A DNA stretch of 64,000 nucleotides from Mycolicibacterium sp. TY81 (GTDB taxonomy: Bacteria; Actinomycetota; Actinomycetes; Mycobacteriales; Mycobacteriaceae). The position numbers and the translations under genes are program-made. Position 1 is the stretch's first letter. Each line of letters starts with the position of its first letter. The notes under the pieces were generated by a model. It saw nothing but the letters and a program-made list of their open reading frames with translations. It made no database searches and was not told the DNA's origin. Shown here in pieces: positions 32,246 to 53,231 of this stretch. The stretch covers positions 5,332,001 through 5,396,000 of the forward strand of contig NZ_AP023362.1 of assembly GCF_018326285.1 (NCBI RefSeq), given 5' to 3'.

Positions 32246-32306
32246 CGCGAGTGTGCAGCCAGAGCGTCTGACGGCCCGGATCTGGGCGCTGTGCGCACGC
32301 TCGTGA
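32246..32306 (-). repeat. Dispersed 63-bp element (c), copy G (reverse orientation)
   Basis: Begins CGCGAGTGTGCAGCCAGAGC and ends GCGCACGCTCGTG, the reverse-complement layout of the copies at 51901-53231. Copy H starts 81 bp further on. Confidence 0.5.
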
Positions 32307-32326
32307 CGCCGGCTCCAGTTGGTTTT

Positions 32327-32387
32327 CGCGACTGTGCAGTGAGAGCCTCCGAGCGGCCGGATCTGCGCTCTACGCGCACACTCGAGG
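32327..32387 (-). repeat. Dispersed 63-bp element (c), copy H (reverse orientation)
   Basis: Begins CGCGACTGTGCAGTGAGAGC and ends ACGCGCACACTCGAG. Diverged, but keeps the outer arms and a GGATCTGC segment equivalent to the CTAGATC block of other copies. Confidence 0.5.
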
Positions 32388-32423
32388 CATCAGCTCCCCG
32401 CCGCTGCGTCACACTCAAAAGAA

Positions 32424-32451
32424 AACGGCCCCCGACGAAGCGGGGGCCGTT
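32424..32451. terminator. Bidirectional terminator between pucR and fadE5
   Basis: Stem ACGGCCCCCG/CGGGGGCCGT with a 6-nt loop, flanked by an A-rich stretch on the left (AAAAGAAAA) and TTCACTTT on the right. It lies between the convergent pucR and fadE5 genes and can serve both. Confidence 0.85.
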
Positions 32452-32464
32452 CACTTTGCCTGGA

Positions 32465-34300
32465 TCAGAAGGACGCTTCGTCCAGCTCCATGGCCTCGTT
32501 GTCGACGGACTCGATGACCGAGCGGACGCTGGTCAGCAGCGGCAGCATGTTCTTGGCGAAGAACGAAGCCGACGCGATCTTGCCCTCGTAGAACGCCCGG
32601 TCGTCGCCGGTGGCGCCCTCGTCGAGTGCCTTGATGGCAACCGCGGCCTGCTTCAGCAGCAGCCAGCCGATGACCAGGTCACCGACGGCCAGCAGGAAGC
32701 GCACCGAGCCCAGGCCCACCTTGTAGATGGACTTCGGGTCTTCCTGAGCGGCCATCAGGTAGCCGGTCAGGCTGGCGGCCATGCTCTGGACGTCGCCCAG
32801 GGCGGTGGCGAGCAGCTCGCGCTCGGCCTTCAGGCGGCCGTTGCCGTCCTGGTTCTTGATCAGCTGCTCGATCTCGCCGGCGACGAATGCCAGGGCCTGG
32901 CCCTTGTCGCGGATGATCTTGCGGAAGAAGAAGTCCTGCGCCTGGATGGCGGTGGTGCCTTCGTACAGCGAGTCGATCTTCGCGTCACGGATGTACTGCT
33001 CAACCGGGTAGTCCTGCAGGAAGCCGGAACCACCGAAGGTCTGCAGCGACTCGGTCAGCTTCTCGTAGGCGCGCTCGGAGCCGACACCCTTGACGATCGG
33101 GAGCATCAGGTCGTTGACCTTGAAGGCCAGCTCGGCGTCGACGCCGTGGACGGCCTTGGCGACCTCGGGGTCCTGGAACGACGCGGTGTACAGGTACACG
33201 GCGCGCAGGCCCTCGGCGTAGGACTTCTGGGTCAGCAGCGCCCGACGAACGTCCGGGTGGTGCATGATCGTGACGCGCGGAGCGGTCTTGTCCATCATCT
33301 GGGTCAGGTCAGCACCCTGGATGCGGGTCTTGGCGTACTCGAGAGCGTTCAGGTAGCCGGTCGACAGGGTCGCGATGGCCTTGGTGCCGACCATCATGCG
33401 GGCCTGCTCGATGACATCGAACATCTGCGCGATGCCGTTGTGCACCTCGCCGACGAGCCAACCGACGGCGGGGGTGCCGTGCTGGCCGAGGGTCAGCTCA
33501 CAGGTGGCCGAAACCTTCAGGCCCATCTTGTGCTCGACGTTGGTGACGAAGGCGCCGTTGCGCTCGCCGGGCTCACCGGTCTCGGGGTCGAAGTGGAACT
33601 TCGGCACGAAGAACAGCGACAGACCCTTGGTGCCCGGGCCGGCGCCCTCGGGGCGGGCCAGGACCAGGTGCATGATGTTTTCGAACAGGTCGTCCGAGTC
33701 GGCCGAGGTGATGAATCGCTTCACACCGTCGATGTGCCAGGTGCCGTCGGCCTGCTGGACAGCCTTGGTGCGGCCGGCGCCCACGTCAGAGCCGGCGTCG
33801 GGCTCGGTCAGCACCATGGTGGCGCCCCAGCCGCGCTCGGCAGCCAGGATGGCCCACTTCTTCTGCTCGTCAGTGCCGTTGTTGTAGAAGATTTCGCACA
33901 TGCCCGAGCCCATGGCGTACATGTAGGCGGCCGGGTTGGCGCCGAGCACGTGCTCGATGAGCGCCCACTGCAGTGCGCGGGGCATCGGCATGCCGCCGAG
34001 CTCTTCCTTCAGACCGACCTTGTCCCAGCCACCGTCGAGCAGTGCGCGCATCGACTTCTTGAAGGGCTCGGGCAGCGTGACGGTGTGAGTCGCGGGATCG
34101 AAGACCGGCGGGTTGCGGTCGCCGTCGGCGAACGAATCGGCGATCGGGCCCTCAGCGAGGCGCGCGATCTCGTTGAGCATTTCCCCGGCGGTGTCGGCAT
34201 CCAGATCGGCGAACTTGCCTTCGCCGAGTGCCTTGTCTACGCCGAAGACCTCGAACAGGTTGAACACCTGGTCACGGACGTTGCTCTTGTAGTGGCCCAC
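32465..34300 (-). CDS. fadE5: FadE5: acyl-CoA dehydrogenase
   Basis: A 611-aa flavoprotein of the ACAD family with the extended C-terminus typical of FadE5 (Rv0244c). GTG at 34300 follows GAGGAGA by 5 nt, giving MGHYKSNVRDQVFNLFEVFG. FAD/substrate segments include MVLTEPDAGSDVGAGRTKAV and KRFITSADSD; the catalytic base region is near QDYPVEQYIRDAKIDSLYEG, followed by TTAIQAQDFF. It oxidises a broad range of acyl-CoAs in the first step of beta-oxidation. Its promoter carries the TTAC-N6-GTAA palindrome shared with the fabG4/fadA2 region, consistent with common control of these fatty-acid genes. Confidence 0.95.
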   Translation of the reverse strand: MGHYKSNVRDQVFNLFEVFGVDKALGEGKFADLDADTAGEMLNEIARLAEGPIADSFADGDRNPPVFDPATHTVTLPEPFKKSMRALLDGGWDKVGLKEELGGMPMPRALQWALIEHVLGANPAAYMYAMGSGMCEIFYNNGTDEQKKWAILAAERGWGATMVLTEPDAGSDVGAGRTKAVQQADGTWHIDGVKRFITSADSDDLFENIMHLVLARPEGAGPGTKGLSLFFVPKFHFDPETGEPGERNGAFVTNVEHKMGLKVSATCELTLGQHGTPAVGWLVGEVHNGIAQMFDVIEQARMMVGTKAIATLSTGYLNALEYAKTRIQGADLTQMMDKTAPRVTIMHHPDVRRALLTQKSYAEGLRAVYLYTASFQDPEVAKAVHGVDAELAFKVNDLMLPIVKGVGSERAYEKLTESLQTFGGSGFLQDYPVEQYIRDAKIDSLYEGTTAIQAQDFFFRKIIRDKGQALAFVAGEIEQLIKNQDGNGRLKAERELLATALGDVQSMAASLTGYLMAAQEDPKSIYKVGLGSVRFLLAVGDLVIGWLLLKQAAVAIKALDEGATGDDRAFYEGKIASASFFAKNMLPLLTSVRSVIESVDNEAMELDEASF

Positions 34301-34348
34301 GATTTCTCCTCGATGAGATGGACTGTAGGGGTTGGGTACTCAGGGCTA

Positions 34349-51982: not shown

Positions 51983-52045
51983 CGCGAGTGTGCGTACAGA
52001 TCGTGAAATTCGCGTTGGAGGCGCGCTGGCTGCACATTCGCGGGC
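51983..52045 (+). repeat. Dispersed 63-bp element (c), copy B
   Basis: Begins CGCGAGTGTGCGTACAGATC and ends TGGCTGCACATTCGCGGG. The start is exactly 82 bp after the start of copy A. Together they fill most of the space between the PE-PPE gene and the DUF559 gene. Confidence 0.75.
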
Positions 52046-52143
52046 CGGGGCGCTGACGCCGCAGCTATCCACAGTGCGTGATTTGTCCACAGATCACCCG
52101 TTCGGGGTTCCCGCGAAGCCTGCGGTGCCGCAATGTGATTGCT

Positions 52144-53040
52144 GTGCAGACCCCTTTCATCGGCAGCGAGGCCGTCGCGCTCGGGCGGGTTCGCAAGCAC
52201 CTGTTGCGCAGCCGGTTCACTCCGATGTTTCCCGACGTCTACACCGACAAGTCGGGTGACGACCTCACTATCTACCACCGCGCCACTGCGGCCTGGCTGT
52301 GGTCACGGCGCGGCGGGGTGATCGCCGGGCTCACCGCCTCGAAATTGCACGGTGCCAAATACATCGACGACTCTTTCCCGATCGAATTGGCTTGGTCGGG
52401 CCGACGACCGCCCTTCGGCATCGTCACGCACAAGGTCCAACTGGCGGCCGACGACGTCGTTGTTCGCGGCGGGCTTCCCTTCACCAGCGTTGAGCGGACG
52501 GCCTTCGACATCGGCCGCCGCGGCACCCTCGATGAGTCGATCGCTCGGCTCGACGCACTCGGCAACGCAACCGGTTTCACCGCGGATGCCGTCCGGCAGC
52601 TTGCGCTCGGGCATCGCGGCGCGCGCGGCATGCGGCAATTGGTCGCGGCCCTCGACCTGTATGACCCAGGTGCCGAGTCGCCACCGGAAACTGCGTTGCG
52701 GCTATTGCTCATTCGCGCCGGCTATCCGAGACCGGCTACCCAAATCCCGGTACGAAGTGCCGACGGTAAGCGCCAGTACTACCTGGATATGGGGTGGGAG
52801 AAGTACAAGCTGGCGGTCGAGTACGACGGTGACCATCACCGCACGGATCCGCGCCAATTCGCCTACGACATCCAACGGTCAGAAGACCTCGATGAGTTGC
52901 GCTGGACGCGGATACGTGTGGTCAAGCGCCACAACGAAAGCGGTGTGCTGGCTCGGGTTGCTCGCGCGTGGGCCGCGGCTGGCGAATTTGCGACGGTGCC
53001 GCTCGACGAGTGTGCGTCCAGATCGCGGAATATTGCGTAG
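52144..53040 (+). CDS. DUF559/AbiEi-like domain protein
   Basis: A 298-aa protein from GTG at 52144 (MQTPFIGSEAVALGRVRKHL); an in-frame start exists at 52078 and a GTG at 52135, but neither has a clear ribosome binding site. The N-terminal half resembles AbiEi/HTH-type antitoxin-like proteins (FPDVYTDKSGDDLTIYHRAT, RGGVIAGLTASKLHG). The C-terminal ~100 residues look like a DUF559/Vsr-like nuclease fold: YYLDMGWEKYKLAVEYDGDH has the D-x(n)-E-Y-DGD pattern, followed by RTDPRQFAYDIQRSEDLDEL. Such genes are widespread in actinobacteria with unproven function. The last ~12 residues and the stop lie within repeat copy C. It has no evident link to lipid synthesis. Confidence 0.75.
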   Translation: MQTPFIGSEAVALGRVRKHLLRSRFTPMFPDVYTDKSGDDLTIYHRATAAWLWSRRGGVIAGLTASKLHGAKYIDDSFPIELAWSGRRPPFGIVTHKVQLAADDVVVRGGLPFTSVERTAFDIGRRGTLDESIARLDALGNATGFTADAVRQLALGHRGARGMRQLVAALDLYDPGAESPPETALRLLLIRAGYPRPATQIPVRSADGKRQYYLDMGWEKYKLAVEYDGDHHRTDPRQFAYDIQRSEDLDELRWTRIRVVKRHNESGVLARVARAWAAAGEFATVPLDECASRSRNIA

Positions 53041-53067
53041 GGACGCTCTCGCTGCACATTCGCGGCC
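53005..53067 (+). repeat. Dispersed 63-bp element (c), copy C (overlaps a gene end)
   Basis: Begins GACGAGTGTGCGTCCAGATC and ends CGCTGCACATTCGCGGCC. The TAG stop of the DUF559 gene (53038-53040) lies inside it. First of three copies at 82-bp spacing. Confidence 0.7.
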
Positions 53068-53086
53068 GTGCGTGACCAGTCCACGT

Positions 53087-53149
53087 GGCGAGTGTGCGTC
53101 TAGATCGTGAAAATCGCGTTGGGGTCGCGCTGGCTGCACATTCGCGGCC
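53087..53149 (+). repeat. Dispersed 63-bp element (c), copy D
   Basis: Begins GGCGAGTGTGCGTCTAGATC and ends TGGCTGCACATTCGCGGCC; 82 bp after copy C. Differs from copy E at only about three positions. Confidence 0.8.
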
Positions 53150-53168
53150 GTGCGTGACCAGTCCACGT

Positions 53169-53231
53169 CGCGAGTGTGCGTCTAGATCGTGAAAATCGCA
53201 TTGGGGTCGCGCTGGCTGCACATTCGCGGCC
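53169..53231 (+). repeat. Dispersed 63-bp element (c), copy E
   Basis: Begins CGCGAGTGTGCGTCTAGATC and ends TGGCTGCACATTCGCGGCC; 82 bp after copy D. The spacer between D and E (GTGCGTGACCAGTCCACGT) repeats that between C and D, so the true unit is 82 bp. Confidence 0.8.

Follow-up and report, generated by a model that had tools for sequence, protein, structure and literature searches.

A 58-bp palindrome bracketing an AbiEi-like/Vsr-like nuclease gene in Mycolicibacterium, a putative recognition site and border of a mobile unit

The 64,000-nucleotide stretch of the Mycolicibacterium sp. TY81 genome analysed here (the window; contig NZ_AP023362.1, positions 5,332,001 to 5,396,000) contains eight copies of a short palindromic element and, at 52078-53040 on the plus strand, an open reading frame (ORF) for a nuclease that five of these copies bracket. 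Palindromes A (51902-51959) and B (51984-52041) lie upstream of the gene, C (53006-53063) overlaps its 3' end, and D (53088-53145) and E (53170-53227) follow downstream, all on the plus strand. The remaining three copies are solos: F (12207-12264, plus strand) sits between ORF 11584-12183 and a cobalamin riboswitch, while G (32247-32304) and H (32328-32385) form a tandem on the minus strand between the convergent ORFs 31054-32232 and 32465-34300. All eight copies are present where a first-pass annotation of the window had placed them, with a conserved core of 58 bp that is ungapped when the window copies and two further copies from the same genome are aligned on their half-sites. The inverted-repeat ends described there are borne out as well, each core consisting of two inverted half-sites of about 20 bp, with GCGARTGTGCNNNNAGMKCG on both arms and a variable 18-bp centre. 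The location of every copy in intergenic DNA at gene ends does not hold for C, so not every copy is purely intergenic. The annotation also missed the main point, the bracketing of the nuclease gene by A-B and C-D-E, which is one instance of a large class of gene-specific palindromes.

The first half of the encoded protein has an AbiEi-antitoxin-like fold, and the second half a Vsr/homing-endonuclease-like fold (MTES_1575/DUF559) that resembles the catalytic domain of I-Bth0305I. Among 22 family members, Pfam matches at E <= 0.1 comprise MTES_1575 in all 22, DUF559 in 21 and AbiEi_1 in 10; PADLOC AbiEi models match 22 of 22, and the five Pfam families listed for these members include no Y1 (IS200/IS605-type) or other known transposase domain. 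The family is large, with at least 559 coding stretches confirmed in one scan, and same-genus genomes carry several of its genes each. Two paralogous nuclease genes lie only 1.8 kb apart on the contig of the window (G000:C1, about 599476-603017), and their flanking palindromes differ.

The true start of the window gene is probably 52135 or 52144, preceded by two plus-strand motifs at 52065-52073 (CTATCCACA) and 52083-52091 (TTGTCCACA) that resemble DnaA boxes. The hexamer TCCACA, on either strand, occurs within about 250 bp upstream of 84 of 145 homologous genes versus downstream of 5 (52 versus 3 of 85 loci after thinning), and ATCCACAG occurs upstream of 46 and downstream of none of the 145, with a single occurrence among 208 control ORFs. 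In an alignment of several closest relatives the TCCACA motif stands at the centre of the upstream palindrome, and in 8 of 37 cases of the thinned set the upstream repeat contains it.

The gene and its palindromes occupy a lineage-specific insertion, approximately 51856-53296, between two convergent genes, one with a PE-PPE domain and one Sap-like. The window locus was searched in 118 same-genus genomes and read at 12 loci, in 11 of which both flanking genes occur together; there they stand 11-155 bp apart, versus about 1.44 kb in the window. Palindromes plus gene thus form an insertion of about 1.4 kb that is absent from all 11 readable relatives. A second empty place is found in the genome of the window itself, which lacks a unit carried by seven loci at the same junction (two of these, L067 and L149, encode proteins 98% alike), and a third is provided by a unit in Mycolicibacterium sp. 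J2 compared with an empty relative (L133/L257). At 53230-53320, adjoining copy E, a tandem triplication of about 33 bp from the 3' end of the Sap-like gene (CCTAGATTCCCAAC...) was noted by eye; it might be a repair trace of the insertion.

Homologues of the nuclease were chosen by protein similarity alone, and about 260 bp before and after each gene were compared. In a first set, consisting of ten loci and 60 more fetched from the same list (70 in total, 69 usable), 56 of 69 scored above 13.0, the 95th percentile of a cross-locus null; because related loci inflate this null, control ORFs were relied on. In a second set of 80 named loci (79 mycobacterial by title and one titled as an Acidobacteria metagenome-assembled genome; 76 usable), the upstream/downstream repeat score reached at least 20 in 52 of 76, versus 2 of 395 control ORFs from the same loci. 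After thinning of both sets to 70% protein identity, 56 of 85 loci are still positive. Most of the repeats read out for 27 first-set loci are imperfect palindromes, and their sequences vary between genes. By dyad scoring, 146 of 295 flank segments lie above the 99% level of letter-shuffled segments (shuffle maximum 11.5), although some of these high-dyad segments look like ordinary terminators. Outside the genus, a long flank repeat well above the shuffle maximum is present in 8 of 16 loci (L236, L239, L242, L243, L247, L249, L250 and L251 among L236-L251, that of L249 being partly low-complexity), with a 20-bp flank repeat in L238 and none in the other 7. Distant homologues inside the genus have a flank repeat in 4 of 4 cases.

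The palindromes are largely private to their genes. A model of the window palindrome, R1, was built from ten own-genome copies (the eight window copies and two others) and models pairing; palindrome A, itself among the source sequences, scores 84.0 bits against it. Among the 21 closest named homologues, 17 have R1 matches in both flanks (weakest flank match E 0.18), L130 and L146 have one in a single flank, and L149 and L150 have none; in other loci R1 matches nothing at E <= 0.5. In 88 of 95 loci, the gene's own two repeats match each other better than the repeats of any non-syntenic locus. Repeat similarity rises with protein identity (rho 0.39 over 3701 non-syntenic pairs), and repeat scores of at least 20 occur in no pair below 45% protein identity, in 25% of pairs at 60-70% and in 5 of 6 at 70% or more.

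The two arms of the palindrome also change together across species. In an alignment of 29 clade palindromes (three of the eight window copies and 26 R1 flank matches, with matches of other length and some others excluded), 74 cells are changed on both sides, versus 33.5 +/- 4.8 in shuffles and 5-23 when the arms are slid, and the arm covariation score is 0.285 versus 0.119 in shuffles. The first-pass annotation had proposed RNA folding and covariation as a check. Single strands of the eight copies can indeed fold into hairpins (z from -0.74 to -4.75); an RNA hairpin as the selected feature was rejected, since the ten own-genome copies show no compensatory change. RNA is likewise not favoured over DNA by the joint change across species, because this fits a DNA dyad site equally well.

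Homology between units at unrelated sites seldom extends beyond the palindromes. Among 500 unit pairs at 62% protein identity or more, 213 are without flank similarity, and in 118 of these the palindromes are mapped in both units. Homology ends within 10 bp of the outer palindrome edge on the left in 39 pairs and on the right in 44, and runs past the palindrome in only 4 and 2 (6 in all). Both ends lie within 10 bp of the edges in 24 pairs, drawn from 28 loci; between L161 and L171, for example, homology spans -121..+60, with the palindrome edges at -119 and +56. The pairs were chosen for having no homology beyond 250-300 bp, and the comparison therefore concerns the last few hundred bases.

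In the window, a single half-site is not more frequent than chance. The paired 58-bp form, searched with up to 3 mismatches over 24 specified positions, occurs at 28 sites in the 6.47-Mb genome versus 0 for the reversed pattern used as control. Eight of these are the window copies and the other 20 lie elsewhere, so the element is not confined to the window. Site counts were taken from this pattern and not from R1, because R1, modelling pairing, also scores palindromes of other families (such as an L120 flank); its census scored no more than 150 candidates. At E <= 0.1, R1 has matches in 28 of 41 genomes: all but one of the 25 from the same genus (24, the source genome among them) and 4 of the 16 others, where the best match has E 0.009; weak matches may represent other palindrome families of the same class. 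Phage sequences yielded one partial match and plasmid sequences eight, the latter actinobacterial. On the contig G000:C1, 21 of the 28 sites fall in a 1.5-Mb interval to one side of the top match to the DnaA family (5086821), a post hoc observation in which tandem copies are counted singly and the interval amounts to about a quarter of the contig if circular.

Thirty own-genome sites were examined; 27 are clear of any ORF supported by codon-position GC, and 13 lie between convergent ORFs, a count to which no chance expectation is attached. None of the 10 relatives read showed the solos G and H at that gene end, though the left neighbour gene is unmatched there too. At this gene end, Mycolicibacterium sp. 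J2 carries a unit (L133), and another solo, in a different genome (L273), occupies a gap that in seven other genomes holds nuclease genes of the family. These cases suggest shared insertion spots for solos and units, but the coincidence of G/H with L133 may be chance, given 27 solo loci and 145 units, and the L273 solo is unlike the repeats extracted for four of the units at that place. No Rfam family reaches its gathering score at the palindrome copies, and a MIR398 match between B and the nuclease gene (E 0.35, below gathering score) was taken as chance. Rfam matches elsewhere in the window are an F6 small RNA (sRNA) at 20665-20721, an Ms_AS-4 sRNA at 25783-25864 and the cobalamin riboswitch at 12320-12505, before which solo F ends by 55 bases.

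The constant spacing that drew attention to the element is confirmed, at 82 bp for A-B, C-D and D-E and 81 bp for G-H. Pairs at 81 or 82 bp recur at seven genome places besides C-D-E, namely A-B, G-H and five more, and the R1 census adds one pair outside those seven, at 5852078/5852159. The likeness of the spacers, also claimed earlier, is strong between C-D and D-E (23 of 24 letters identical), partial for A-B versus C-D (16) and absent for G-H. Six other spacers, G-H included, have a mean identity of 9.3 as wholes versus 8.0 in shuffles (0 of 500 shuffles reach it), falling to 6.6 versus 6.2 (69 of 500) once the outermost 2 and 3 bases are trimmed, because these are part of the palindrome edge. 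The annotation had offered either unit duplication or a spacing need, and both have a place: the near-identical spacers of C-D-E indicate recent tandem duplication, while the six pairs with kept length and differing spacers would fit a spacing need or old duplications with decayed spacers. The listed matches of three other genomes include no 82-bp pairs, so the tandem array may not be general.

Taken together, we consider it likely, with a probability of roughly two in three, that the 58-bp element serves a mobile unit of about 1 kb, palindrome-gene-palindrome, both as its cognate DNA site and as its border, which the encoded protein reads and acts on. The support, drawn from sequence comparison, lies in the gene-specific flanking palindromes, the co-divergence of palindrome and protein, the joint change of the arms, the rarity of homology past the palindromes and the empty sites; from these we infer binding, cutting and movement of the unit. 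In PMC7319586, AbiEi is described as binding two 23-bp inverted repeats 3 bp apart, and the Rv2827c promoter as holding four 23-bp repeats in two pairs, the members of each pair separated by 13 bp, all four of them bindable. The resulting geometry, 23+13+23 = 59 bp, is near the 58 bp of the palindrome core, and binding of such paired repeats by AbiEi-family proteins leads to the proposal that the nuclease reads its palindrome as both operator and border. The AbiEi-like half would bind the two half-sites, as fold, geometry and co-divergence lead us to infer; the upstream palindrome would serve as operator, and the upstream and downstream palindromes together as borders for the nuclease. Breaks at the palindromes could allow the unit, or a palindrome alone, to be copied or lost via recombination, with cut-and-copy, repair into a break and single-strand transfer as candidate routes. 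On this view, the dispersed solos would be scars or non-autonomous copies, and the 81-82-bp tandems would offer the same protein arrays of several sites.

A purely regulatory role, with the palindromes as autoregulatory sites of an AbiEi-like regulator, as in AbiE, and no part in mobility, would agree with the operator-like geometry, with the upstream copy usual among the closest homologues and with the PADLOC matches to every member. It appears improbable in view of the matched copy downstream of the gene, the homology that rarely passes either palindrome, the dispersed solos and the empty sites; moreover, no DUF1814/AbiE toxin gene adjoins the nuclease gene in the window, where the neighbours carry PE-PPE and Sap domains. 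A role of the palindromes as borders for nuclease action as well would explain the downstream copy, the limits of homology and the empty sites. The nuclease could instead be a homing endonuclease that cuts solo palindromes, its gene being copied in by break repair, with the solos as targets. The I-Bth0305I-like catalytic half, the L273 solo in its gap and the Mycolicibacterium sp. J2 unit at the gene end of G/H are in line with this, whereas classical homing genes destroy their target and here both flanking palindromes are intact, so that insertion has not disrupted the recognition site if the palindrome is that site. Homing into a pre-existing solo was also not seen at the window locus, since its 11 empty sites are without a palindrome; with the L273 solo unlike the extracted repeats and the J2 coincidence possibly due to chance, this explanation is as doubtful as the regulatory one. 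Very improbable, finally, is a set of hairpin terminators or RNA-processing sites around the gene with no protein partner. Although single strands can fold and 13 of 30 own-genome sites lie between convergent ORFs, the sequence is mostly private to each gene and tracks the protein, the copies within the genome have a conserved core sequence, no T-run was seen by eye after the window copies, and a distinct hairpin with trailing T lies downstream of G/H.

Several observations weigh against a protein-read mobile border. The two locus sets overlap, L064 and L144 being one record and others 93-98% alike, and 29 of the 85 thinned loci have no shared repeat at the cut-off. The pairs behind the co-divergence are not independent, and no p-value is claimed for it. 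The rows of the arm alignment were found with a model that includes pairing; two of the five arm measures do not exceed shuffles (pairs with change on both sides, 10 versus 8.8; further pair types, 31 versus 29.4), and the ten own-genome copies contain no compensatory arm pair. Homology mostly stops short of the palindrome (75 of the 118 pairs on the left, 72 on the right), so the border claim rests on the 24 both-end pairs, which again are not independent. At the window locus, no palindrome is present at the empty sites of the relatives, and no target-site duplication is evident at the few junctions read, where flank identity to the relatives is about 67-89%. One genomic neighbourhood (L188, L196; about 350-4100) is common to many units of the closest clade, with flanks about 76-87% identical, which may reflect an insertion hotspot or a resident that evolves fast. 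Solos are not universal, since a second family in the genome of the window has exactly two palindrome copies and both adjoin its gene.

Among known systems, the Vsr-like homing endonuclease I-Bth0305I, which is intron-encoded, resembles the catalytic half in fold, whereas the gene described here is free-standing, has intact palindromes on both sides and adds an AbiEi-like first half. As with insertion sequences, units with matched ends occur here at unrelated sites and have empty counterparts, but no known transposase domain is present. The AbiE type IV toxin-antitoxin systems (AbiEi, Rv2827c; PMC7319586) share the first-half fold and have inverted-repeat sites that are likewise paired and span almost the same length; they differ in that the present protein has a nuclease half and lacks an adjoining toxin gene in the window, while its sites flank the gene on either side and also occur elsewhere. 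Closest in working is REP/RAYT, with an unrelated enzyme here. As described in PMC2817692, its enzyme gene stands between two cognate palindromes, further copies of which are scattered over the genome, as found here for the 28 sites, though with only two in the second family. The enzyme is an AbiEi-like/Vsr-like nuclease instead of a Y1 transposase, the hosts are Actinobacteria, and the palindromes are mostly 56-70 bp without the GT(A/G)G head of REP (PMC2817692); those of the window clade begin with CGA, and starts vary in other families. Myt-1 of M. tuberculosis, a stem-loop repeat family of 72 bp and 75 copies in the accessible part of PMC2267715, is, by description, a similar short dispersed stem-loop in a mycobacterium, for which that part names no nuclease partner.

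No description of such an element was found among the papers listed for mycobacterial repeats (PMC2267715, PMC1590033), DUF559, AbiEi (also together with DUF559, homing and palindromes), I-Bth0305I and MTES_1575, and no paper at all was matched on mycobacterial palindromic repeats combined with nuclease genes, a coverage that mostly excludes subscription journals and so does not establish absence in print; papers containing the half-site 10-mers, judged by title among the matches listed, include none about such palindromes. A mobile gene with cognate palindromic ends is a known kind, to which, as far as found, the enzyme is new. Tentatively, and at a little short of even chances, these units may form a new class of actinobacterial mobile elements in which an AbiEi-type DNA reader is fused to a Vsr-type nuclease without a classical transposase. 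The reader half and the palindromic ends would change together, giving several mutually blind families per genome, and the DnaA-box-like promoter motifs may link expression with replication. No function is assigned to the nuclease genes of this family, common as they are; if each has its own recognition site on either side, the sequence itself gives that site, which can then be put to a direct test. If true, the proposal would add an enzyme class to those shaping bacterial intergenic DNA, provide naturally co-evolved protein-DNA pairs from which specificity could be decoded, and account for some of the palindromic repeats in mycobacteria.

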